Positions 483 to 29,502 of a stretch of DNA of 37,276 bases are shown piece by piece. Under the pieces are notes generated by a model that was given only the letters and a program-made list of their open reading frames with translations, ran no database searches and had not been told where the DNA came from. Position 1 is the first letter of the stretch, and each line of letters opens with the position of its first letter. The translations under genes and the position numbers were made by a program. Source of the stretch: a virus; IMG/VR virus record IMGVR_UViG_3300031951_000542, positions 1 through 37,276 of that record; one strand, 5' to 3'.

Positions 483-704
483 ATGAGTTTTGATATAGTA
501 AACAAGCCAGCACACTACAACCAGTCGGCTATCGAGTGCATCGAAGCGATAGAGGCTTCAATGACCAAAGACCAGTTCTGCGGGTACTTAAAGGGAAACA
601 TACTTAAGTACATGTGGCGGTTTGAGGACAAGAACAAAGCAGAGGACCTCAAGAAGGCCCAATGGTATTTAAATAAATTAATAAAATCATATGAGCAAGT
701 TTAA
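483..704 (+). CDS. DUF3310 family protein
   Basis: A 73-residue protein with the features of DUF3310: an N-terminal NKPAHYN motif, then ECIEAIE, a YLKGNILKYMWRFE core and a C-terminal KAQWYLNKL helix. The family is common in phage genomes and is sometimes annotated as a nucleotide kinase. That activity is poorly established, and no P-loop is present here. The start at 483 is supported by the conserved N-terminal motif beginning at residue 7. The gene overlaps the next one by 14 nt, consistent with translational coupling. Confidence 0.9.
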   Translation: MSFDIVNKPAHYNQSAIECIEAIEASMTKDQFCGYLKGNILKYMWRFEDKNKAEDLKKAQWYLNKLIKSYEQV

Positions 705-1269
705 AGAATTAAATTCAATCAACGTCAACAAGATGACGGAGAAGAAGGGAAACCTAACTTACCTGTCATGGGCTTACGCATGGCAAGAGACAATGAAGGT
801 CTGCCAAGACATGACACGCACCGTTTACGAGTCTGCGACCGGTAACAACTACCACACAGACGGCAAGACAGCATGGGTTAAGGTCGGCATCACCATCGGT
901 GGCCAAGAGCACATCGACTACCTGCCAATCATGGATGCAAGAAACGCTGCGCTTCCCATCGAGAAGGTTACGTCGTTCGATGTTAACAAGGCCATCCAGC
1001 GGTCAACCACCAAGGCCATCGGCCTGCACGGACTAGGTCTTTACATCTACGCCGGCGAGGACATGCCAGACGACGAGAAGGCCGCTAAGGCCCCATCAGA
1101 GCCAGCCATCATCGAGCTAGTTGTTGGTGACGAGAACTGGGCCAAGGTAATGAACTACTTGACAGCAAACAAGAAGAAGGGATCTAAGTTCATCATCGAG
1201 CAGTTGTCGAAGAAGTACAGCATCAGCGAGGCCACACGCAGTGAGATCAACAAGGAGGTAGCATCGTGA
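691..1269 (+). CDS. Single-strand annealing protein, DUF1071 (Sak3-like) type
   Basis: A 192-residue protein. Its first ~130 residues match the DUF1071 pattern of phage single-strand annealing proteins: NLTYLSWAYAW near residue 21, a middle segment around PIMDARNAA, and VNKAIQRSTTKAIGLHGLGLYIYAGED near residues 90-117. The C-terminal ~60 residues are charged and helical. In this family the protein coats resected single strands and pairs homologous DNA. The next gene encodes a PD-(D/E)XK nuclease and the one after an SSB-like protein, so the three form a complete Red-type recombination cassette. The stop codon overlaps the GTG start of the exonuclease gene. Confidence 0.88.
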   Translation: MSKFKELNSINVNKMTEKKGNLTYLSWAYAWQETMKVCQDMTRTVYESATGNNYHTDGKTAWVKVGITIGGQEHIDYLPIMDARNAALPIEKVTSFDVNKAIQRSTTKAIGLHGLGLYIYAGEDMPDDEKAAKAPSEPAIIELVVGDENWAKVMNYLTANKKKGSKFIIEQLSKKYSISEATRSEINKEVAS

Positions 1270-2000
1270 CAACCGAAATCCTAACGAGACTGAACAGCGA
1301 CTCTGACTACTACGGAACATTTGGAAAACAGTTCCTCTCAAACTCGGACATCGGGGCCCTACTGAAGGACCCCTCGTCCTTTGGGAAGGACAAAGAGAAA
1401 ACCGTTCCGATGGTGCAGGGTTCTTACTTCCACGCATCACTGCTTGAGCCAGAGAAGGTCGTTGACTTTCTGATCTGCGACGTGTCATCTAGAAATACCA
1501 ACAGGTACAAAGAGATGTGCGAGGCACACCAGACAGACATCATCCTGCTGTCTAAGGAGGTCGAGGAGTTGGACGCGATGGTTGACTCCATCAAGGGCCG
1601 CATGGACTTCTTCGACATGATCTACGAGGACGGCAATCTGTACGAGCAGCCAGGCATCTCCAACATCATGGGAGAGACATGGAAGGGAAAGGCAGACATC
1701 ATCTCATCGGAGTATGTCATCGACCTAAAGACCACATCAAACATCGAGGAGTTCAAGTACTCTGCAAGGAAGTACAACTACGACTCACAGGCCTACATCT
1801 ACAATCAGATCTTCGGCAAGCCGGTTCTGTTCATTGCGGTAGAGAAGGGCACAAACAAGACGGGAATGTTCGACTGCTCAGAGGAGTTCCTAGACCGTGG
1901 CAAAGAGAAAGTACAAAGAGCAATAGAAGTATGGCGCAAGTTCTTCGGGCCAAACAAAACAGAAGACATCACACAATACTACACAAAAGAAACATTATGA
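1266..2000 (+). CDS. PD-(D/E)XK exonuclease (RecE/lambda-exo-like)
   Basis: A 244-residue protein starting at GTG; the GTGA overlap with the annealing-protein stop decides the start. The N-terminal third contains the LSNSDIGALLKDP and GSYFHASLLEP segments typical of RecE/YqaJ-like phage nucleases, where substrates are recognised. The catalytic motif is visible: D144 in GKADII, then D153-L-K155 in VIDLKTT, followed by an SQAYIY helix (the Q-x-x-x-Y motif). The predicted job is 5'-3' resection of double-stranded DNA to give 3' tails for the preceding annealing protein. Aspartate in place of the usual glutamate before K155 is allowed in the family. Confidence 0.88.
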   Translation: MTTEILTRLNSDSDYYGTFGKQFLSNSDIGALLKDPSSFGKDKEKTVPMVQGSYFHASLLEPEKVVDFLICDVSSRNTNRYKEMCEAHQTDIILLSKEVEELDAMVDSIKGRMDFFDMIYEDGNLYEQPGISNIMGETWKGKADIISSEYVIDLKTTSNIEEFKYSARKYNYDSQAYIYNQIFGKPVLFIAVEKGTNKTGMFDCSEEFLDRGKEKVQRAIEVWRKFFGPNKTEDITQYYTKETL

Positions 2001-2287
2001 GTGCACTAATCAGTTTATCAATCGACGTGACTAAGATCACAAAAAGCAAACTTAAGGACGGTAAGTACCTTGACGTAACCATCTCTGTAGACGACCAGAC
2101 CAACCAGTGGGGCAAGAACGCATCCATCTACGAGTCGCAGACAAAAGAGGAACGCGAATCTAAGGCCTCTAAGGCCTACATCGGAGGCGGAAAGGTAGTT
2201 TGGACCAACGGAACTATTTCAGTGGCTGAGAAGGCCTCTAATGAGCCCAAGAAGGCAAATCCTCCGGTAGACGAGTTACCGTTCTAA
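1997..2287 (+). CDS. SSB-like protein with acidic DELPF tail
   Basis: A 96-residue protein; the ATG overlaps the exonuclease stop codon as ATGA, which fixes the start although the frame is open further upstream. It is predicted to be mostly beta-strand in its first ~75 residues (alternating hydrophobic pattern ISLSIDV, YLDVTISV, GKVVWTNGTISV). It then has a short Pro/Lys linker and ends in DELPF. This C-terminal tip resembles the D-D-x-P-F tip by which bacterial SSB recruits partner proteins. Together with the annealing protein and nuclease upstream, this suggests a small phage single-strand DNA-binding protein with an OB-like fold. The fold is inference; the tail is seen directly. Confidence 0.75.
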   Translation: MSALISLSIDVTKITKSKLKDGKYLDVTISVDDQTNQWGKNASIYESQTKEERESKASKAYIGGGKVVWTNGTISVAEKASNEPKKANPPVDELPF

Positions 2288-2295
2288 GAAACCAA

Positions 2296-2341
2296 GACAC
2301 TGGCACAGGGGACCGCCCCCTGTGTCGTTGTGTCGGTTTTT
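2296..2341 (+). terminator. Intrinsic terminator after the recombination cassette
   Basis: Inner stem CACAGGGG (2304-2311) / CCCCTGTG (2317-2324) with loop ACCGC, enclosed by GACAC (2296-2300) / GTGTC (2330-2334), followed by GG and five T residues (2337-2341). It sits directly after the SSB-like gene. Two CGACACA motifs (in reverse orientation) of the neighbouring array fall inside it. Confidence 0.65.
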
Positions 2342-2537
2342 AGCTCTCCTATTCTATATATATTATTTATACTACTTATATTTTTTTCTTTGAATAAGTA
2401 TTGAACAAGTAAAAATCGACACAAAAAAGCTAAGTAAAAGAAATTCAATGCGCTTGGTTGTGTCGCTTACTTTTAAAATCGACACTAAACCGACACAAAC
2501 CCCAAAAAAACGACACAAAATGGCAAAAATCGACACA
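2321..2537 (+). repeat. CGACACA iteron-like array
   Basis: Eight copies of CGACAC(A) within about 215 bp. Forward copies start at 2417, 2480, 2491, 2511 and 2531; reverse copies (TGTGTCG) lie at 2321-2327, 2329-2335 and 2459-2465. Most have A-rich flanks, giving a longer consensus near AAAATCGACACAAA. Centre-to-centre steps from the copy at 2417 onward are about 42, 21, 11, 20 and 20 bp, i.e. whole numbers of helical turns. The array runs into the first codons of the gene at 2520. Confidence 0.75.
2341..2537. other. Candidate replication origin (AT-rich stretch plus iterons)
   Basis: Bases 2341-2400 are almost pure A/T (runs such as TATATATATTATTTATAC) and adjoin the helically phased CGACAC motifs at 2417-2537. 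An AT-rich unwinding element beside phased iterons is the usual build of an initiator-dependent origin. The primase-helicase gene starts about 500 bp downstream. No promoter-like TAnnTTTG box was found here. The alternative is a regulator-binding region controlling the downstream genes. Confidence 0.5.
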
Positions 2538-2702
2538 CATAAGATCAGAATTATACACGCTGAGGTGGTAGAGAATGGAATTTTAATCAAGGCAATTGGA
2601 CTTTATTCACCCGACGGCGACTATATTCGCGACACCAAGTTGAACGGCAAGCTTCTTTGCACACTCACCGAGTCATTGATGGACATTAAAATTTGTAACT
2701 GA
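2520..2702 (+). CDS. Small unknown protein downstream of the iteron array
   Basis: A 60-residue protein starting MAKIDTHK. The frame is open upstream to an ATG at 2448, but the extra 24 residues would be read from the iteron repeats and are low-complexity (Lys/Thr/Pro), so 2520 is preferred. The pattern of short strands (IRIIHAEVV, ILIKAIGLY, GKLLCTL) suggests a small beta-rich fold. No family is recognised. The stop overlaps the next start as TGATG. Because its first codons contain the last CGACACA motif, its expression may be affected by whatever binds the array. Confidence 0.6.
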   Translation: MAKIDTHKIRIIHAEVVENGILIKAIGLYSPDGDYIRDTKLNGKLLCTLTESLMDIKICN

Positions 2703-2908: not shown

Positions 2909-3074
2909 GTGCACGGCAAGGCAGTACGCCGTGTTAATAATGAGGGAGGACCTACACTACTCCTACCAAAAGTGTGGTATCAAGCTTGGCATATCTAGGT
3001 ATGCGGCTTTTCAGTTATACAAACGAGCAAAAATCAAATTAAATGGGAAACATAACAATATTCAAAAGCATTAA
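2889..3074 (+). CDS. Small HTH protein resembling sigma-70 region 4
   Basis: A 61-residue protein whose whole length fits a region-4-type helix-turn-helix: a T-x-R-Q-x-x-V-L start (TARQYAVLI, residues 9-17), a middle helix, then the recognition part KLGISRYAAFQLYKRAKIKL at residues 32-51. The match to the TARQ motif supports the start at 2889 rather than the internal ATG at 2940. It overlaps its neighbours on both sides (20 nt and 32 nt). It could redirect or modulate host RNA polymerase, or simply be a DNA-binding regulator; no sigma region 2 is present. Confidence 0.7.
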   Translation: MVLEIYKCTARQYAVLIMREDLHYSYQKCGIKLGISRYAAFQLYKRAKIKLNGKHNNIQKH

Positions 3075-5439
3075 GGACACTTCCACTCCTTTCTACCGGT
3101 CTGTTGACTACATCATACACCGGATCAGAGAAGGGAAGTCCAAGGACATCATCAAGCGGATCAGAGAGGAGAAGGACAAGGACAAGCGAAACCAAATCAA
3201 GAAGGAGCTACCGGCAATATGTTTCTCTGGCGAGTTCACTCGCAGGGAAGACTCAGCGCTCATCGCCCACTCTGGAATCATCTGTCTTGACTTTGATGGT
3301 TTCACCAAGAAGGCGGACATGCTGGCCAAGAAGGACGAGTTCACGAAGGACAAGCACACGCTGGCCGTATTTATCTCTCCATCTGGTGATGGTCTAAAGG
3401 TACTTGTAAGAGTTCCTGCCGATGAGAACAAGCACAAGAGCTACTTCAACGCGCTGGAGAAGTACTACAACTGCGAGCAGTTTGACAAGACGTCAAAGAA
3501 CGTAAGCCGTGTGTGTTATGAGTCTTACGACCCGTTGATCTTTCACAACCCAGAGGCAAAGCAGTGGGACAAGCTAGCAGAGGAGGAGTACGAGCCGATC
3601 GAGAGGCCGGAGAACAAACGTACCATCACCGTTACTGACCAGAACGAAATCATCAGACGCTTGCGCCTGTGGTGGGACAGAGAGTATGGAATGGTCGTGG
3701 GCGAGAGAAACCACAACCTGTACGTGCTCGCTGCCGCGTTCAATGACTTTGGTGTAAACAAGGAGCTGGCCACTTATGTGCTGAGCGAGTTTGCACACGA
3801 CGACTTCCCGCTGTCAGAGGTAAAGACCACCATCGACAGTGCCTACAAAAAGGAGATGAACTTCGGCATCAAGTTCTTTGAGGACAGGGATGCCATCGAC
3901 AGCGTTCGCCGTCAGATAAAGAAGGGCGTGCCAAAAAAGGAGATACGTCAGCAGCTTAAGGAGTCTGGACTGAATGACGAGGTTACCGACGCCGTAATTG
4001 TAAAGATCGAGGAGGACTCCTCAAGCAAAGAGTTTTGGACCAAGTCGTCGAAGGGCGTTGTGTCTGTAGTTCATTACCTATTAAAAGAGTTTTTAGAAGA
4101 CAATGGCTATTTCAAGTATTCGCCAGAAGGCACAAAGAATTATATTTTTGTTAAGGTTACGAACAACCTTATATCAAATACGACGGAAGATGAGATAAAG
4201 GACTTGGTGCTGGACTACCTGTTCAGAATGGAGGACCTTTCAATCTACAACCACTTTGCAGACAAGACACGCTACTTCAAGGAGGACTTCCTGTCGATGC
4301 TGTCGCCGGTTGACGTGTACTTCGTTGAGGACGACAAGGACAATGCATACCTGTACTACAGGAACTGCGCCGTTCGTGTTACCTGTAGCGACATCACAAT
4401 GATCGACTACCTCGATCTTGGTGGATACGTTTGGAAAGACCAAGTAATTGACAGGGACTTTCAGATCTGCGACGCGTATGACTGCGACTTTAAAACGTTC
4501 ATCAGCAACATCTCTGGTGGAGAGAAGGACCGCATCAGATCGGTAGAGAGTACCATTGGTTTCCTGCTTCATAGCTACAAGAACCTTGGCTACTGCCCGG
4601 CGGTAATCATCAATGATGAGGTCATCACTGATAACCCAGAGGGAGGAACCGGTAAGGGCCTGTTCATGAACGCGGTGTCCAGGATGAAGAAGTCAGCGGT
4701 TATCGACGGCAAGAGTTTCAACTTCGAGCGAAGCTTTGCGTATCAGACCGTGTCAACGGACACGCAGATCATTGTGTTTGATGACGTGAGAAGGAACTTT
4801 GACTTTGAGAGGTTGTTCTCTATTGTAACCGAGGGTATCACACTTGAGAAGAAGAACAAGGACGCGATCAAGATTCCGTTCCACAAGTCACCGAAGGTAG
4901 TTATCACAACCAACTACGCCATCAAGGGAAAGGGTAACTCTTTCGAGCGACGCAAGTGGGAGCTAGAGTTCAAGCAGCACTACAGCAAAGACTTCACGCC
5001 ACAGATTGAGTTCGGCCGGTTGTTGTTTGAAGACTGGAACGAGGACGACTGGTGCAAGTTTGACAACTACATGGTCAACAACTTGAAGAACTACCTATGC
5101 TTTGGCTTTGTAAGATCAGACTTCAAGAACTTGAAGACGCGTAAGTTTATCGCCGAGACAGACCACAACTTCTGGGAGTGGATGACAGACAAGGAGAACC
5201 GGTTCGTCAAGGTGAACACCAAGATCTACAAGGAGGACGTGTACAAGGAGTTTGTTGTCGATAACCCAGACTACGGCCAGCGAGGCAAGACGTCTATATC
5301 GCTCAACAAGTTCTACAAGTGGCTTGAGGCCTTTGGTCTTTTCTACACGGGAGAGACAGTAGAGCAGGGACGCGATGGCTCTGGACGATGGATTAAGTTT
5401 GTAAGAAGTGAAGCTGAGCAAGTTGAATTTGATTTCTAA
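3043..5439 (+). CDS. Primase-helicase (VirE_N/BT4734-type N-terminus, SF3-like helicase)
   Basis: A 798-residue replication protein. Residues ~1-170 resemble the VirE_N/BT4734-like domain, with a GIICLDFDGF motif (D83, D85) and SPSGDGLKVLVRV near 112-124. These look like motifs I and II of archaeo-eukaryotic-type primases, an inference. Residues ~205-280 form a small helical domain (WWDREYG ... FNDFGV) like primase C-terminal modules. The C-terminal half is a helicase: Walker A NPEGGTGKGLF near residues 530-540, Walker B QIIVFDDV near 574-582, sensor 1 KVVITTNYAIKG near 622-634. It probably unwinds and primes at the fork, and may start at the nearby iteron array. It ends with a TAATG overlap onto the SF2 helicase gene. 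Confidence 0.88.
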   Translation: MGNITIFKSIKDTSTPFYRSVDYIIHRIREGKSKDIIKRIREEKDKDKRNQIKKELPAICFSGEFTRREDSALIAHSGIICLDFDGFTKKADMLAKKDEFTKDKHTLAVFISPSGDGLKVLVRVPADENKHKSYFNALEKYYNCEQFDKTSKNVSRVCYESYDPLIFHNPEAKQWDKLAEEEYEPIERPENKRTITVTDQNEIIRRLRLWWDREYGMVVGERNHNLYVLAAAFNDFGVNKELATYVLSEFAHDDFPLSEVKTTIDSAYKKEMNFGIKFFEDRDAIDSVRRQIKKGVPKKEIRQQLKESGLNDEVTDAVIVKIEEDSSSKEFWTKSSKGVVSVVHYLLKEFLEDNGYFKYSPEGTKNYIFVKVTNNLISNTTEDEIKDLVLDYLFRMEDLSIYNHFADKTRYFKEDFLSMLSPVDVYFVEDDKDNAYLYYRNCAVRVTCSDITMIDYLDLGGYVWKDQVIDRDFQICDAYDCDFKTFISNISGGEKDRIRSVESTIGFLLHSYKNLGYCPAVIINDEVITDNPEGGTGKGLFMNAVSRMKKSAVIDGKSFNFERSFAYQTVSTDTQIIVFDDVRRNFDFERLFSIVTEGITLEKKNKDAIKIPFHKSPKVVITTNYAIKGKGNSFERRKWELEFKQHYSKDFTPQIEFGRLLFEDWNEDDWCKFDNYMVNNLKNYLCFGFVRSDFKNLKTRKFIAETDHNFWEWMTDKENRFVKVNTKIYKEDVYKEFVVDNPDYGQRGKTSISLNKFYKWLEAFGLFYTGETVEQGRDGSGRWIKFVRSEAEQVEFDF

Positions 5440-6689
5440 TGGAAAATAAAATCACATTAAGACCATACCAGCAGGACATAGTGGAAAAGACTCGTGTCCT
5501 GCTAATGGGTCCTAAAAGGTTCGCATATCTTTCTATGGAGGTGAGGACGGGCAAGACATTAACAGCACTGTCCGCTCTTGACCATATCGTTGACGTCAAC
5601 GAAATGGTATTTGTCACCAAGAAGAAGGCCATTGCTGGAATCCAGAAGGACTACAAGGCCCTTGCTCCTAAGTATAAGTGTACGTTTATTAACTACGAGA
5701 GCCTGCACAAACTAGACGTGAGTAAGATCGACGCCATTGTATTCGATGAGGCACACGGAATGGGAGCGTTTCCAAAGCCAAGCAATAGGGCCAAGGAGGC
5801 CCGTGCCTTGGTGTTGAAGCACAACCCATACGTCATCTTCTTGTCTGGAACTCCATCGCCGGAGTCGTACTCACAGATGTACCATCAGATGTGGGTGCTT
5901 GGATCTAGGTCTCCGTTTACTGAGCCTACGTTTTACAAGTGGGCACATACATACGTAAAGGTATGGGAGCGTATGATAAACGGCTTTCGTGTTCACGACT
6001 ACAGCAACGCATACCAAGACAAGGTAATGGACGCCATCAAGCCATACATGATAAGCTACACGCAGAGCGAAGCAGGATTTACATCCAAGGTAAACGAGCA
6101 TGTGTTAAAGGTAACGATGTCTGACACAACGTACAAGATCGCTGACAAGCTGAAGCGTGACTTGGTGTTCGAGGGAAAGGAGGATGTGATACTTGCGGAT
6201 ACGCCGGTGAAGCTGATGCAGAAGCTGCACCAGATCTACAGCGGTACAGTCATTCTTGAGTCTGGAAAGGCAATCATACTGGACAAGACCAAGGCAGAGT
6301 TCATCAGAGAGAAGTTTGCAGGAAAACGCATAGCGGTCTTCTACAAATTCCAGGCAGAGCTAGAATGCTTGTTGTCTGTCTTCCAAGAAGATATGACCAC
6401 CGATTTAGGAAAATTTCATGCAGGTGAGTGTAACAACTTTGCTATACAAATTGTTACCGGGCGTGAGGGGATATCTCTAAAGGAGGCTGACTTCTTGGTC
6501 TACTACAATATTGACTTCTCCGCCACGTCCTACTGGCAGAGCCGTGATCGCCTAACTACGATGGATAGACTAGAGAACAATGTGTACTGGATCTTTGCAG
6601 ATGGTGGCATCGAAGAGAAAATCTACAAGGTTGTGCAAGGAAAAAAGCCGTACACTGTTTCACATTTTAAGCGTGATGTTTTAAAGTAA
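5439..6689 (+). CDS. SF2 DEAH-type (SNF2-like) helicase
   Basis: A 416-residue superfamily 2 helicase. Visible motifs: a Q-like LRPYQQ at residues 7-12, motif I VRTGKT (35-40, K39), motif II DEAH (103-106), motif III SGT (136-138), motif V TGREGISL near 345, and motif VI QSRDR (367-371). It is shorter than most SNF2 proteins and has no extra nuclease or chromatin domains. In phages such proteins usually stand beside a VRR-NUC nuclease, as here, and are thought to assist replication or recombination restart; the exact substrate is not known. The ATG overlaps the primase-helicase stop (TAATG). Confidence 0.9.
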   Translation: MENKITLRPYQQDIVEKTRVLLMGPKRFAYLSMEVRTGKTLTALSALDHIVDVNEMVFVTKKKAIAGIQKDYKALAPKYKCTFINYESLHKLDVSKIDAIVFDEAHGMGAFPKPSNRAKEARALVLKHNPYVIFLSGTPSPESYSQMYHQMWVLGSRSPFTEPTFYKWAHTYVKVWERMINGFRVHDYSNAYQDKVMDAIKPYMISYTQSEAGFTSKVNEHVLKVTMSDTTYKIADKLKRDLVFEGKEDVILADTPVKLMQKLHQIYSGTVILESGKAIILDKTKAEFIREKFAGKRIAVFYKFQAELECLLSVFQEDMTTDLGKFHAGECNNFAIQIVTGREGISLKEADFLVYYNIDFSATSYWQSRDRLTTMDRLENNVYWIFADGGIEEKIYKVVQGKKPYTVSHFKRDVLK

Positions 6690-14000: not shown

Positions 14001-17000
14001 AGCTTTGCTTATTGAGCGTCTTAGCTTTGACGCCTGTGCTATTTTGTCTTTGTACTCAGCAGTTTGAAGAACATTCGACATGTAGTCAACGAAACGGTCT
14101 CTCATTACCGGGTTCAAGATGTTCATCTTGTCGTACCTAGCCAATATAGCGGTAGCCTGCTTCGCAGAAATAACGCCACGGCCTGACATTCCACGCAGTG
14201 TTGTAGAGATCTGAGTTCTCAATTCTTTAACGTATGCAACAGCATCTTTGGCAGCCTTAGCTTCCAGTTTGATTTGGTCCTTAAGTGCTGTCTTCTCCTT
14301 TACTGTTACCTCTTTGGTGTCCTTGATCTCACCCATGATGCGAGCCACTGATGGAGCGGTCTTCATCTTTTCGCCTCTGATCTTCTTGAAGTCGCGGATG
14401 ATCTGCTCACGCTGAGAGTCGTCGGCCCTTTCGTATACTGCAGACTTTTGGATGTATCCAATAGCGGCAGCACTTGCCTGGTTGTAGCTTCCGCCACGGT
14501 TCATGCTCTTCTCTAAAATGCCTTCAACCTCACCCATCATTCTTTCGTATCCAGGGATGACGGTTACGTCTACCTTTTGAGAACGAGTGGTTACTGACGG
14601 CTTGGCCTTTTCAATCAACAAGATCCTATCCCTTGTGAATTTGGTCAACTGGAACTTGCTTCTGTCAAAATTTCCGAACGCATTCTCTGTGTCGATCGTC
14701 AATACGTCTCCCTCTATGTCGGTTATTTTGCCATACCTTTTATATACAAATACCTCATCTCCAATCTCAAACACGTCCTCTGGTATTTCCTTGAATCCGG
14801 TGTAGTCAGCCTCTGGAGTTAACTCCTTCACAGTCTGAGCTCTGTAGCTCTTAGGTCCTCCCCAGTTTGTAACAACCATGTCATACCCGTTCTCTGCGGC
14901 AACCTTGGTAACCCATGCTGCTGCATTGTTTGAGTCGAACGCGTATGTAGTTGGCCTTGTTTCATTTCCACGGTTCTTGTACTCCTGGAACCTACGGCGT
15001 GCTTCTGGCTCGAAGTTCTCTGGATCGTTTAATACCTTTCCTCTTTCAGTAGTTCCGTAGAAGTAAACCTTGTCTTTAGGAACTAACACGGTATGTGGAA
15101 CGTCACCTACGCCACTTTCTACTTGGCCCTGCTTTGTGTAGTACATGGCAACACCACCAACAGATGAGATGGCGGCTACCTCTTCGCGTCCTGTAAAGTT
15201 CTTTTTAGAACCAGACATTGGCTTAATGGTGTCACGCTTCTCATCAGAGTAGTGAACAAATACATAGTTGCCTTTTCCGTCGTCTGTAAGAACCTCGTCT
15301 ACAACTGCGGGCACAGCTTTCTGTGACTTGGCAGTTACTTTTGTTTCTTCTTCTGGCTTCTGGTAGTCTGCATCAATGGTAGAAGTATACATTGTTCCAG
15401 AGATTGCAGTGAATGGATTTGTCACTGTTTTCTCATGACCATTCTCCATCAACCACTTAGTAACCTTGTTCTTTCCTATGATTCCAGAAGACTTTGACTC
15501 AGATGCGTTATTTGCATCGTTGTATAATTTGTATCCCTTAGCATCTGGGAATCCCATAGATGGGAATAGCTTATTAACATTCCTTGCTTTGTCTAATCTG
15601 AAAGATTTTCCGTTTGAAGAAAATGATTCGTTAAACATTTCGTGCTGAATGCCCTTGTTTTTATTAGCTAAAAAATCCTCTCTAGTTACATAAGGATCCG
15701 CATAGAAACCACCAAGAGTAGTCCCTCCAATTGAGCTTTCTTTAAAGTTTGACTTTTCTAAAGCGTCATACAGGATTTCGTCCATAGTGTCTTTATAGAA
15801 GTCTTTTCTTCCATATCCAACATCTAATAACAATTTTTTTATCTCTGGATTTTTACCAGTTGCGCTTTTCAATGGAATCAACTCAGACAACAAAGACGAT
15901 CTGAACTTGAATGAGAAAGCCTTAGAACCAAGTTCTCTTGCAGCTTTAATTCTTCCTTCGTGAGTGTCAAATCCTTTTTCTTTGATTATGCCTTTTAGCT
16001 TATCTAATTGCTTGTACTGAGCATCTCCTTTTATTTCTTTAATAGACCTTGCATCACCCTTTGACTCAGAAGCCTTTCTCTCTGAATCAACGTATCTTTT
16101 CTGTGCTTCAGCAATAGCTGTGTCCATTAGCTTTCTAGCTTTGGCTACTGTTGTTTTCTTTTCGGTAATTGCCTTGTCTAATCCATCCATCAGGAACTCT
16201 CCAGCATACCACTCTCCAAGCATTGACTCTGCATTTTGGATTGTAACGAACACAGCAACTGGTTTTCCAGCCATTTCTGGATTCGACGCATCTCTTTCGC
16301 TCGCGATCTGTTGAATCAATCTGTGGAATGTTCCTACGTGTGCTTCGCTAGTAGCAGCAAAACCAATATTATCATTTATGTTCTCTTCAAAATAAGCATA
16401 TCTCCATCCACCCTGCAATTTCTTGTTGTCTCTTGTCATGCCTACCTTGGTGCCATCGCTATTGATAAATACAGCAGCCCCACCAGATTCTTTCAATACA
16501 TTCTCAATAGGCTCAACCTCTGGCATTTTCAACTTATCCGGCATGTTAGAATCGTTGTATTCTATAGACATGTCAAATTGATTGTCAACAGAGTCTTTGC
16601 CGATCTGAGCCCTTGAGATAATACCACCATCCATAGTAGCTCCTGGAGTTTCACCCCTAAAGAACTGAGATATGTCCTCTCCCTTTGACACCTTCTCAGA
16701 GATGGTTATCATAAATCCAAGGATGTCCTCTGGTGTTGCTTGGTCCAAGAATTGCTTCTTGCCGGTAAACAACTGAGCGAACTTGTTGATGATGTCTCCG
16801 ATCTTCTGCAGAAGAGTCTTCTGTTGAGCCGTTAGTGGGCCCTTTCCAAAGCCAGATGCTACCAACATACCACCGAGCTCAGCCATGTACTCTGAGTATT
16901 TAACGGCCTCATAGCCACGCTGGCTAGCGAATGCGTCTAACTTGTCTGCAATGTCCTCAAAACCTTGAGCCCTTAGCTGTGCGTCAATGCTGTCAACAAA

Positions 17001-26600: not shown

Positions 26601-29502
26601 ACTTGAAGTTCGCAGTAGACAAGTTAAACTCGTTAAGCCTGTTTGTTCCGGTATCTTCACGGAAAACTCCGCTATATGTAAGACCATTTGTTACCTGCTC
26701 CTGTTCGTAGTTCTCAACGTTAGACAATACGCGAGGGCTGTACTTCATTAATGACCCATTGAAGTCATCTCTGATACGGTCGCTCTCTACGCCATTTCTA
26801 AAGCAGAATGCATTGTATACATTGTCCAAGCTAACCACTGCCGCTTTCTTTGACGTTCCTGCCGTAGCTCTTGTTTGGTTTGTTACGTTTCCAGAGTGTA
26901 AGCCATTAACAACATCGAATGTCGCAGCCTCGTGGTAGATATCCGCATCGCTTGATGTTGGTACAGTTTCTAGAATCGTTGGATTCTCCACTTGAGTCAG
27001 AGAGAAGTCTACTGTAAGTAGTGAGCGCTCGCAGTCTGTCAAGCTTCCAGGAGTATTACCGTATCCAAGGATGTACATCCTTACGGCTCCATAAAGAGAC
27101 TGCCTTGTTTCGTTTATATTGTCCTTTATTCTAAAAACTACAGACCTTCTAAAGAAGATGCTCTTGTACCCCTTGTTCCCGTCCGCCATCATGACAAACT
27201 TGGTATAAGCCCCATCCTCAATAAACCACTCTTCGATGTTCGCGTAGTTTCTAGAAGAAACAAATGTTTGCACAGGCTGATCAGATCCACCCACAACTTT
27301 AGTCTCGTCTATCTTGATGGTAATTACAGCCCCAGCCTTTATCTCTAAGTCCTCTTCTGTTGCATTAATACCAGGGACGGCAGTGGTCTGAAGTGCTCCA
27401 GGAATAATAGCACAAGACCCAATGGGATCGTTTTTTCCGTTCCAAGCTGTGCGGTCACCAAAATAGTTAAGTCCATTGTCTGAGCGACAGTTTATTCTCC
27501 AGCTATCGCCAATTGTGTGGCCATTTACTGTAGCAAACTTAATATTAGCAATGTCTCTTCCGTCCTCATCTTTTAGTATTTGATTGGCCCCTGTAATTGC
27601 AATCTTAGAACCAAGTACTTGAGAGGACCCGAACATTGTGTACTTAAATGTATTTATACCATCGATAGTTACCGTATAACGAATATCCTTTGTAGTACCC
27701 ATGGATATCCACTGAGGATCCACAGATAGGTTGTTCAATCCAACCCCGTAGAATATGGGAGGCTCAATCAACGCCTTCCTGTCCAAAAGTGGGTTTATTG
27801 TCTCCTTGCTACACAACAATCGACCAACACCAGTGCGTCCTTTACCTACAGACTTGTATGTAAATAGACTGTCCTCGTTAAACGCGTTGTTGTTGTCTAC
27901 TTTTATCTTCAAGTATACACCAGCCACATTGGGTCTTGCGCTGTTGTTCAAGAAGTCCTTTGGCTTCACCTCTAGCTCTAGAACTTTATATTGCTGAGCA
28001 CTGTATGTAATTCCAAGAGGATTTGCCTTGATGGTGATATAGTCGTTCGCTTTTACCTTATCTACGTCTGACTCGTTGATGAGCATGTATACGAATGGTC
28101 CGTCAACATAAAACAACGTAGGATAAATGGTATAGTATGCGCCCTTGTTTTGCTTGATCATGATACGATACTTTGTAGCAAAAGCAGGTGCCTCGTTATT
28201 GATGTTCACCAACAACTTGTTAGATGTGTCAGAGTTCTCTGGGCCAATATAGACAGAGTTGTCTACAGAAGTAAGCACAGTGCTCATTCTTCCGTATGCG
28301 TCAACATAAGAAATGCCGATCTCGTAGTCTCTGTCACTACGCATTGTCTTCACAGGAGTTCCTACAACATACGATGTAGACAACTTGCTCTCTGGAACAA
28401 CCTCTACTCCGTAGTTCATTGTGATGCCTTTGTTTGCGATATCTACAATGTTGTAAAACTGAGTGTAGTTTCCATAAACCAAGCGACTACCGATCAGGTC
28501 TTGAGCTTTGGCTTTTAACGGAACGTTATCAAATAATCTTGTCAGCTGATTAGCAGGAAGAACACTGTAAAGTTTATTGTTTGAAAAAGACTGAAGCGTT
28601 GCTGTAGTTCCAGATAAGCTAACAGAGCTAACATTTCCAGATACTATCTCTGCTCTTGAGAAGTTGTCTACTACATTCACATTCAATCCAGACGCATCTC
28701 TAAATACCAACTGGATCTCTTTTACGTTATCAGATCCAATGTCAAATGAAACATCTACAGCATTGTATGTGTTTACCATAGACTTGTTTACACCGGTTCC
28801 GTAGTCGTACTGAAAGTCCTTTGGGAAGAATGCCACCTCAGAGAACGGAGCAAGAGAGCTGTACTCGTTGTTCTGATACTTGTATCTATAAGAGAAGTAC
28901 AAGAACTTGTCTGTCATGTTGTTTGTGTCAGACCCGTCGTTCTTTAGTGTTAATGTAGGTGCAGTAAGCGGTGGCTTTACAATAACATTGATGTCCTCTT
29001 CTGTAAATGCATTGTATGCGTAATTCTGTTTGGTGTCAATTCTCCTTGGAGGATTAAGACCATCGGTCCAGAAAAGCAAGTCACTAATATAGTTCACTCC
29101 AGTAATTAAGTACTGAGTGTTGAAATTCAATATGTTTGCAGATCCAACTCTCGTGTCCATCACGTGCACGGTAGTTAATCCGGTAAGCTCGTTGTATGAT
29201 GCGATGATGTTTCCACCAACGGCCTTTACAAACCAGAAAATAAGAAACTCAGAAGGCACAGCAATTGAACCAATTGCCTTAGCTCCTGTCAGAGAAAATG
29301 CAGATCCAGAAAATGCAGTGGCCGCAGCAGCTAGTCCACTGACCTTGGTATTCCCTAATTCATTCGACAAAGCTCCAACGTCAGACCCCTCGGAGGTTCC
29401 GACGGTCACGTTCATTGCATCTCTGTATTGTCCATCCGGGATCAGGCGCTCGTCCAGATCCTTATTCATTATACCAGCTACTAGGGTTCTCTTTAATTCC
29501 AT
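23638..29502 (-). CDS. Tail nozzle/muzzle protein with BACON domain and C-terminal repeats
   Basis: A 1954-residue protein. Residues 1-~1100 begin with NKDLDERLIPDGQYRDAMNV and contain repeated beta-blades, as in podovirus nozzle (T7 gp12-like) and crAss-like muzzle proteins. Residues ~1109-1203 form a BACON domain: SSITVD, NIFDIQSNSGWVIT, WMTVAPSSGTGN, RTATLTITASCG, RTFTITQ. Beta-rich modules follow, among them a He_PIG-like Ig domain (~1655-1690, LPAGLNFDSTTGIISGTV). The last ~200 residues carry degenerate Tyr/Cys-rich repeats with GT-x-LY-x-N and WYK/YYK motifs, likely receptor-binding. BACON domains are often glycan- or mucin-associated in Bacteroidetes proteins. Its start overlaps the upstream adaptor stop (TAATG). 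Confidence 0.85.
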   Translation of the reverse strand: MELKRTLVAGIMNKDLDERLIPDGQYRDAMNVTVGTSEGSDVGALSNELGNTKVSGLAAAATAFSGSAFSLTGAKAIGSIAVPSEFLIFWFVKAVGGNIIASYNELTGLTTVHVMDTRVGSANILNFNTQYLITGVNYISDLLFWTDGLNPPRRIDTKQNYAYNAFTEEDINVIVKPPLTAPTLTLKNDGSDTNNMTDKFLYFSYRYKYQNNEYSSLAPFSEVAFFPKDFQYDYGTGVNKSMVNTYNAVDVSFDIGSDNVKEIQLVFRDASGLNVNVVDNFSRAEIVSGNVSSVSLSGTTATLQSFSNNKLYSVLPANQLTRLFDNVPLKAKAQDLIGSRLVYGNYTQFYNIVDIANKGITMNYGVEVVPESKLSTSYVVGTPVKTMRSDRDYEIGISYVDAYGRMSTVLTSVDNSVYIGPENSDTSNKLLVNINNEAPAFATKYRIMIKQNKGAYYTIYPTLFYVDGPFVYMLINESDVDKVKANDYITIKANPLGITYSAQQYKVLELEVKPKDFLNNSARPNVAGVYLKIKVDNNNAFNEDSLFTYKSVGKGRTGVGRLLCSKETINPLLDRKALIEPPIFYGVGLNNLSVDPQWISMGTTKDIRYTVTIDGINTFKYTMFGSSQVLGSKIAITGANQILKDEDGRDIANIKFATVNGHTIGDSWRINCRSDNGLNYFGDRTAWNGKNDPIGSCAIIPGALQTTAVPGINATEEDLEIKAGAVITIKIDETKVVGGSDQPVQTFVSSRNYANIEEWFIEDGAYTKFVMMADGNKGYKSIFFRRSVVFRIKDNINETRQSLYGAVRMYILGYGNTPGSLTDCERSLLTVDFSLTQVENPTILETVPTSSDADIYHEAATFDVVNGLHSGNVTNQTRATAGTSKKAAVVSLDNVYNAFCFRNGVESDRIRDDFNGSLMKYSPRVLSNVENYEQEQVTNGLTYSGVFREDTGTNRLNEFNLSTANFKYVDRFFGSIQKLYARDTDLVVFQENKVSVVLYGKNLISDSVGGGTISTVPEILGTQIAFPGEYGISLNPESFAVWGSDLFFTDARRGVALRVAGNSIQEISMQGMRDWFKDLFIAGINRQKIGTFDPYNQMYVLASNDDTASPCELVVTPSSITVDKTSQTKNIFDIQSNSGWVITNIPVWMTVAPSSGTGNQDVEADIAANNTGVPRTATLTITASCGVVRTFTITQTATVIKRRSTFVIGSPEESGKVGTQKYNYSSSTTAGYEFNDTIFKPVDVSLFDTASDVAGTNGIPAPGDTVTVYAYKDATSALDAELNPFIPTAGNKVYYLVSNTEYTQEDYATVLSLATPVTMSLVGTEYSGTFVYSAPSNEQYLYLIWDYRNTVACGSAVSYSGVAATIPTVVNMGANIGRVSFSYDAQSTPDRFVISVGGNVVADSGYVGLNSLANYNALIAAGVPEAEIALVEPYNGLVNNSTGTLGFVRTSTEETVLTVYSPLSSNSWTATTGCASLTSFTLDTTNGTIDNVCSQTPSTTKYHNADGGVVSIGCTIYNDSTGSSVYDGGNAYHKTGTNLMFVTSNGVVTEISSCVCSETAPPIVTASNMEFVSGQSVNFKVPATNNPTSYTLVSACSNFSFFGGSEGAVFYGANCETGYYETIVVSGGQTSSRCFASGTVSQISGSADATLTVEGACSGFSLPAGLNFDSTTGIISGTVEGIGEYPAAFTATNCFGTGPTTQVTVSSVLNDNPATQFEVFINGQGTSSAACALLVLGWDNLYHNGYYTYPIVGDTVFLQARGGNVFEGSSSWYKTNNNQAIKIGNDGVVESVFNCGSTPPTPPVPPAGGYYQATLCNSTYSAVLYDAVVRVIANGTIFKTSDGNCWTKTANVSPQAATFTVPTTLVTSASCAICTGEAPGLTEVFLTDAGTKSVVCADTNYYSYWTDGTIGVSGTLYLNSSGTTVAGAGYYKSSADLLNAHYWSGSAWTSTEAC

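Follow-up and report, generated by a model that had tools for sequence, protein, structure and literature searches.

What job does an array of short repeats do beside the replication genes of a tailed phage, and which protein reads it? The question was raised by the DNA analysed here (the window: the whole 37,276-nucleotide stretch, positions 1 to 37,276 of IMG/VR record IMGVR_UViG_3300031951_000542), for which the preliminary description had proposed a candidate replication origin made of helically phased CGACACA copies next to an A/T-rich stretch. The copies, supported by the sequence and by relatives, are the following:

2322-2327, minus strand, iteron 1, CGACAC
2330-2335, minus strand, iteron 2, CGACAC
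2417-2422, plus strand, iteron 3, CGACAC
2460-2465, minus strand, iteron 4, CGACAC
2480-2485, plus strand, iteron 5, CGACAC
2491-2496, plus strand, iteron 6, CGACAC
2511-2516, plus strand, iteron 7, CGACAC
2531-2536, plus strand, iteron 8, CGACAC, coding for part of the MAKIDT start of the next open reading frame

On both strands of the 37 kb, CGACAC was found 16 times, with 13.9 copies expected from shuffled sequences, and eight of the 16 lie within 2322-2536. No other 6-mer of the window is as clustered (8 copies in 215 bp). When the whole window was shuffled 150 times with its dinucleotide composition kept, the top 6-mer, whichever it was, had 4, 5 or 6 copies per 215 bp and never more, so the eight-copy cluster first described stood up to the count and probability check proposed with it (0/150 shuffles reach eight). 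The claim that no such cluster occurs elsewhere also held within the window. Several short, similarly spaced repeats far beyond chance, as in iteron-type origins, are present in the array.

The centre-to-centre steps of the last six copies, taken between 7-mer centres, are 42, 21, 11, 20 and 20 bp, exactly as claimed. A Rayleigh test at 10.5 bp against a uniform null bore out the helical phasing of these six, one of them reversed (R = 0.93, p = 0.0003). Since the last six are a subset picked at first reading, the value for all eight copies (R = 0.73, p = 0.007) is the fairer figure; the leftmost two are 8 bp apart and do not lie on the same face of the helix.

The array is embedded in a plus-strand module that runs from a Sak-type annealing protein through an exonuclease, an SSB-like gene and a hairpin to the array, followed by a 60-aa ORF, a Cys-rich ORF, a weak HTH ORF, the primase-helicase and an SF2 helicase:

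691-1269, plus strand, Sak-type annealing protein (annotation)
1266-2000, plus strand, exonuclease (annotation)
1997-2287, plus strand, SSB-like gene, 96 aa, C-terminal tail acidic with DELPF at its end (weak hit to a PHROG of unknown function)
2287-2341, plus strand, strong terminator-like hairpin following the SSB-like gene (folding energy -32.1 kcal/mol, z -5.6)
2338-2416, no strand, A/T-rich spacer (82% A/T), candidate unwinding element (base composition; still A/T-rich in 14 relatives)
2520-2702, plus strand, 60-aa ORF (unrelated genes at the same place in relatives)
3043-5439, plus strand, primase-helicase with BT4734-like_N, PriCT_1 and DUF5906 domains (Pfam; PHROG 28855)
5131-5400, plus strand, predicted C-terminal winged helix of the primase-helicase, residues 697-786 (AlphaFold model)
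5439-6689, plus strand, SF2 helicase (annotation)

The primase-helicase gene, said to follow shortly, starts 507 bp past the last copy. The 96-aa gene directly precedes the array in the window and in close relatives; a Pfam search of its product gave no hit, and it is called SSB-like from its tail motif and position. The host group may be judged only from relatives, the primase matches among named phages being mostly Flavobacterium, Polaribacter, Cellulophaga, Nonlabens and Bacteroides phages.

The description of positions 2341-2400 as nearly pure A/T was overstated, the content being 82%, while the adjoining A/T-rich DNA is real: the densest 60 bp (2355-2414, 52/60) are the most A/T-rich of the whole window. 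An adjacent A/T-rich region, another feature of iteron-type origins, is thus present by composition, with unwinding as its candidate role. The hairpin at 2287-2341 is retained in four relatives' sequences despite sequence changes, and part of its 3' arm is formed by iterons 1 and 2, so the hairpin could be another reason why these two copies are conserved. A terminator scan made no call at the hairpin (0 hits).

A search of IMG/VR with the primase gave 80 loci, the 14 closest at 87-100% identity. When the array was looked for near their primase genes, as had been suggested, it was found in 14/14 with conserved spacing (offsets 0, 8, 95/96, 138/139, 158/159, 169/170, 189/190 and 209/210), although in L005-L008 one of the two leftmost copies is not exact CGACAC. 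The array of this clade is at full strength, with 7-8 consensus copies. The spacer has diverged in sequence in the 14 relatives and kept its A/T-richness.

The gene behind the array varies: the window and L002-L004 have the 60-aa ORF, L005-L007 and L009-L015 have a different small ORF, and the L008 gene resembles, by eye, thymidylate synthase ThyX. Each of these genes starts with ATG, about three bases and then AAAATCGACACA, with the last iteron in its first codons (MxKIDT), and between about 510 and 2340 bp separate the array from the primase. Since the array spacing is constant while the downstream genes are exchanged, the conserved object is the array and not a neighbouring gene; likewise, the 60-aa ORF is not tied to the array, as it is replaced by unrelated genes. 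The edge of the array looks like a gene-swap junction, the following gene being exchanged between close relatives.

Further away, the array before the primase (array 1) is found in several states. L079 and L019 (63%) have a CGACAT array directly before the primase, with steps of 11, 11 and 20-21 bp; its final copy overlaps the beginning of the primase gene. In L017, L018, L020, L022 and L055, the primase is preceded by a pair of weak inverted copies, an A/T-rich core and a single CGACAT, and a similar pattern spelt CAACAT/TAACAT is present in L021, L025, L054 and L074; others have only a terminator-like stretch there. Hits of CGACAC in L035 were set aside as array copies, the DNA there looking like coding sequence.

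Among 34 larger records, a count test, in which a region stands out when 5% or fewer of same-size segments are equally rich, singled out the primase-upstream region in G001, G002, G003, G011, G012, G014, G015, G020 and G033 and not in the other 25; G013 was missed because its array 1 sits further upstream. In about half of the 34 (including G010, G016-G019, G021-G023, G025-G029, G031 and G037), array 1 before the primase is weak or missing, and it is therefore dispensable in the phage family.

In many of these relatives, a second array is strong where array 1 is weak or missing. This array 2 has the same layout, adjoins the phage groEL (groEL and groES were identified by Pfam) and lies 9-12 kb from array 1, outside the window. 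The second CGACAC cluster is at 56990-57196 in G001 (65 kb) and at 61011-61217 in G002 (68 kb, with a terminal overlap of about 108 bp), in both as an inverted copy, an 86-bp A/T-rich gap and direct copies in 21/20-bp steps. G003 carries two CGACAT arrays, at 50165-50344 and 62679-62859, and the complete, circular MW202828.1 (Podoviridae sp. ctfjg026) carries one at 42621-42804 beside groEL and one at 53555-53738 at the primase start. Typically, array 2 consists of inverted copies, 83-87 bp, two direct copies 8-9 bp apart, about 41-44 bp with an IHF-like box, and then direct copies in steps of about 10-11 or 20 bp.

Unsupervised 6-mer clustering of the 34 records and the window placed a CGACAC, CGACAT or TCGACA cluster lying no more than about 3 kb from groEL at the top in 10 records (G003, G006, G010, G011, G012, G018, G025, G028, G029 and G037), and array 1 at the top in G001, G002 and G013. 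Upstream of groEL, the motif-class count exceeded every control segment of the same genome in 16 of the 28 groEL records, and the A/T-richest 60 bp of the array span were in the genome's top 1% in 26/28. For G001 and G002, the loose motif class was beaten or equalled by 2/110 and 14/115 controls, respectively, and the exact motif is the evidence there. A clear array 2 was not found in the groEL-bearing G009, G016, G017, G019, G023, G027 and G031. Other short-repeat clusters (CGGTTC, GACAGC, CGGAGC, CGTCGC) were seen in relatives, at G028 14160-14231 (L066), G033 56533-56640, G036 39293-39418 and MW202828.1 near 42980.

The regions were also compared with the consensus sequences of the IHF site and of the DnaA box (TTATNCACA). 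A perfect IHF consensus occurs in 11/16 array-2 regions versus 0.7 expected, the records being related and thus not independent. Such a bending site is common and not obligatory in iteron origins; in the window array the best match has 2 mismatches, and the exact DnaA box seen in relatives' array 2 is missing there. In G001, a perfect DnaA box, TTATCCACA, is interleaved with the array-2 iterons at 57177-57185.

The strongest GC-skew turn lies no more than 5 kb from array 2 in 19 of 21 assessable records (the other 7 of the 28 groEL records lay too close to an end, and clusters are weak in some of the 21). Since this turn coincides with divergent transcription, it is not independent proof of a replication start. 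The groEL/groES genes head a leftward operon beside array 2 (G001 53582-55476; L137 3261-5059, by eye; MW202828.1 40671-42561). A skew minimum far from 2.4 kb had been named as evidence against the origin reading, and it applies in part: the turn is at array 2, 9-12 kb off, and not at the window array. What stands of that reading is a set of phased iterons by A/T-rich DNA in a replication module, conserved in 14/14 close relatives; the idea of a lone origin was dropped once the second array was found in relatives.

The two arrays of a genome tend to change together. The motif is spelt CGACAC, CGACAT, CAACAT or TAACAT according to lineage, and records with usable array-1 regions were grouped in seven clades, chosen after the data had been seen. 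The motif make-up of arrays 1 and 2 was more alike within the same clade than expected (mean similarity 0.83 vs. 0.42), and only 2/5040 pairings were as good; the weakest match was G014, with CGACAC in array 1 and CAACAC/TAACAT in array 2. That two loci 9-12 kb apart share such changes points to a single trans-acting protein with sequence specificity; this phage-encoded protein would recognise both arrays.

The shared changes also argue against explanations at the RNA or coding level, in which the repeats would be a by-product kept for the SSB-side hairpin or for protein starts. The strength of that hairpin and its retention in relatives would fit such a by-product, as would the last copy encoding part of MxKIDT, but the hairpin spans just two of eight copies, the downstream proteins are unrelated, the array-2 copies are intergenic and an Rfam scan of the array region gave no match. 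This explanation is thus considered very improbable.

Regarding the protein, four neighbours had been named as binders: the 60-aa, Cys-rich and HTH proteins and the primase-helicase. The last was found in 14/14 close relatives and in 34/34 larger records, the latter figure largely by construction because the primase was either the route by which these records were found or was confirmed in them. The 60-aa protein is present in 3/14 close relatives and 0/34 larger records, the HTH protein in 6/14 and 2/34, and the Cys-rich protein in 14/14 and 4/34. By these presence counts, the three small proteins, absent from most records, do not travel with the array and were rejected, and of the named candidates the primase-helicase is left.

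The AlphaFold model of the primase-helicase has a mean pLDDT of 74. Residues 697-786 are modelled as helix-helix-strand-helix-helix-strand-strand, a winged helix, with ten-residue block means mostly of 73-89. The VIA alignments gave hits only over residues 328-786, so the N-terminal primase part was barely compared; over this range the best matches were ASFV PrimPol and the SaPI5 primase-helicase, both with Z 15.8, and 362 residues were aligned to 7ola_C. The SaPI5 alignment (Z 15.8) covers 328-780, and both it and the ASFV alignment extend across the winged helix. Foldseek TM-scores were low.

SaPI Rep recognises origin iterons by its C-terminal domain, and residues 400-538 of its relative Cch2 bind the putative origin of that element (PMC7581432). 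When primase residue columns were compared with motif class, common descent dominated the association, and the winged helix was not picked out. Taken together, the primase-helicase appears to be the best candidate to bind the arrays, most likely via its predicted C-terminal winged helix. That the array consists of initiator or origin-type iterons with the primase-helicase as binder is given a little better than an even chance.

A different binder was considered, namely small phage proteins with a DnaA domain IV (Bac_DnaA_C), to which the iterons would be variant DnaA boxes and which would bring in the primase-helicase. Such a protein was found in 28/36 records, 21 of them over the cut-off, often twice per genome and in the replication module, and also in G027 by a purpose-built profile; it is encoded upstream of the array in 7/14 close relatives. 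In addition, DnaA boxes and CGACACA have CACA in common, and the DnaA box of G001 lies among its array-2 iterons. Against this, the protein was not detected in the near-complete G001, which keeps both CGACAC arrays, nor in G021, G023, G032 and G037, and the CGACAT and TAACAT variants lose the common CACA. It was not found in the window either, which does not include the stretch where relatives encode it. Reading by these proteins is judged unlikely, yet they are a serious rival to the primase-helicase. Stand-alone examples are at 51033-51335 and 60107-60676 of MW202828.1 and at 27471-27671 of G011.

With the primase-helicase as the most likely initiator, the protein would assemble on the phased copies along one DNA face, assisted at array 2 by an IHF-like bend. 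The adjoining A/T-rich DNA would then melt, and the fused SF3-type helicase-primase would load on the melted DNA and prime. Since array 2 carries the IHF-like box in 11/16 regions and lies at the skew turn, this groEL-side array is the likelier main origin. For the window array, the probable role is that of a further origin-type site, or of a control or autoregulatory site, used by the same initiator. It could be comparable to crr, the second cis site in satellite P4, and through it the initiator may also tune the expression of the replication genes.

The same initiator might use array 1 purely as an operator, repressing its own operon or being titrated there, with replication solely from array 2. 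An operator would suit the position of the last copy, which in the window clade, L079 and L019 overlaps the start codon of the gene behind it (the primase in L079 and L019); it would also suit the skew turn at array 2 and the retention of just three or four degenerate array-1 copies in several relatives. However, the window-clade array is at full strength, with its 7-8 consensus copies next to the window's most A/T-rich 60 bp, other genes now separate it from the primase, and no promoter-like match was found at it. This possibility is rated as rather unlikely. These readings overlap, as the operator proposal concerns the job of the array and the DnaA-domain-IV proposal concerns the binder.

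No more firmly held than the operator is a bipartite origin, a tentative idea in which the two paralogous arrays, 9-12 kb apart, would be read by the self-loading primase-helicase, possibly with a DnaA-domain-IV partner. Initiation on the groEL side would need looping to or pairing with the SSB-primase array, and the iterons of the window clade would also supply start codons of the following gene.

Control of transcription unrelated to replication, with the arrays as operators of a phage regulator at two early promoters, is distinctly unlikely. As operators would be, both arrays are intergenic and sit where transcription units begin, array 2 being between divergent operons or close to them. 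Yet promoter scans at the window array gave no sigma-70-type or Bacteroidota-type match; the A/T-rich core, the IHF-like boxes and the SSB-like/primase position fit an origin better; and among the window proteins and the DnaA-domain-IV family, no other DNA-binding protein is as widespread as the primase and that family.

The preferred reading, iterons bound by the primase-helicase, was compared with known replicons. Satellite P4 needs two separate iteron regions, ori and crr, in cis. Two separate arrays of one motif per genome are likewise found in relatives, the window holding one only. The P4 alpha protein unites origin recognition, helicase and primase (title of a reference cited in PMC8628076); unlike the BT4734-like/PriCT protein of the window, it has a bacterial-type TOPRIM primase domain (PMC4234260). 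In SaPIs, an initiator helicase encoded by the element reads multiple short iterons through its C-terminal domain (PMC7581432), the SaPI5 protein being among the best structural matches here. As in SaPI Rep, primase and SF3-type helicase domains and a C-terminal winged helix are combined in the window protein, by predicted structure. The SaPI motif differs, however, and the window belongs to a tailed phage and not to a satellite island.

The SaPI origin lies directly downstream of rep (PMC7581432), whereas the arrays here lie upstream of the primase and 9-12 kb away; no array was found directly downstream of the primase, a side covered only by the 6-mer clustering scan. The pRN1-type AEP primase/SF3 helicase/winged-helix proteins have the same order of activities, including the C-terminal winged helix, but a large stem-loop and not iterons is proposed as their recognised origin (PMC4234260). 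By analogy, the window system seems to work like SaPI and P4 replicons, with an element-encoded primase-helicase, short iterons and an A/T-rich core, and is filed under neither.

Lambda-type and DnaD-like initiator genes also have short repeats about 11 bp apart, and among the ORFs that overlap CGACAC triples at 11-bp spacing are members of DnaD-like and initiator families. In these cases, though, the arrays sit inside the initiator gene and the letters CGACAC are not the common feature. A survey of viral contigs for CGACAC at 11-bp steps gave at least 120 loci, compared with 64 for a reversed-letter control. The scan covered those loci whose triple is overlapped by an ORF (80 of the 120 listed and 40 of the 64, one of 41 control ORFs being omitted as common to the motif set), and phrog_2514, of initiator/primosomal families, was among the matches listed for 13/80 CGACAC-triple ORFs and 6/40 control ORFs. 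Eight initiator-like ORFs chosen by eye all matched; as a selected set, they were not used as a count. The letters CGACAC were thus rejected as a marker of initiator genes, the control at 11-bp spacing behaving alike, and since the control has the same trend, phasing and not spelling is the general mark of initiator-type genes.

Two opposed CGACAC arrays with 11-bp steps and a short spacer were seen in L213, L216, L217, L226, L237, L239, L246, L247, L249, L251, L253, L255 and L280. Many of these contigs are only 4-6 kb long, and the arrays are near terminase-small-subunit-like and exonuclease-like genes (by eye, three loci). They form a separate group in which the motif and its phasing recur.

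A literature search, limited in depth, found no description matching this motif or the paired, co-varying arrays of this phage group. Iteron origins as such are already known. If the proposal is true, a predicted origin and a predicted initiator would be available for a large group of groEL-bearing phages. These phages would also offer a natural experiment, one layout in several spellings, with a matched pair of arrays in each genome. This would open the DNA-recognition code of primase-helicase initiators to testing and raise the question of why one phage carries two origin-type arrays.
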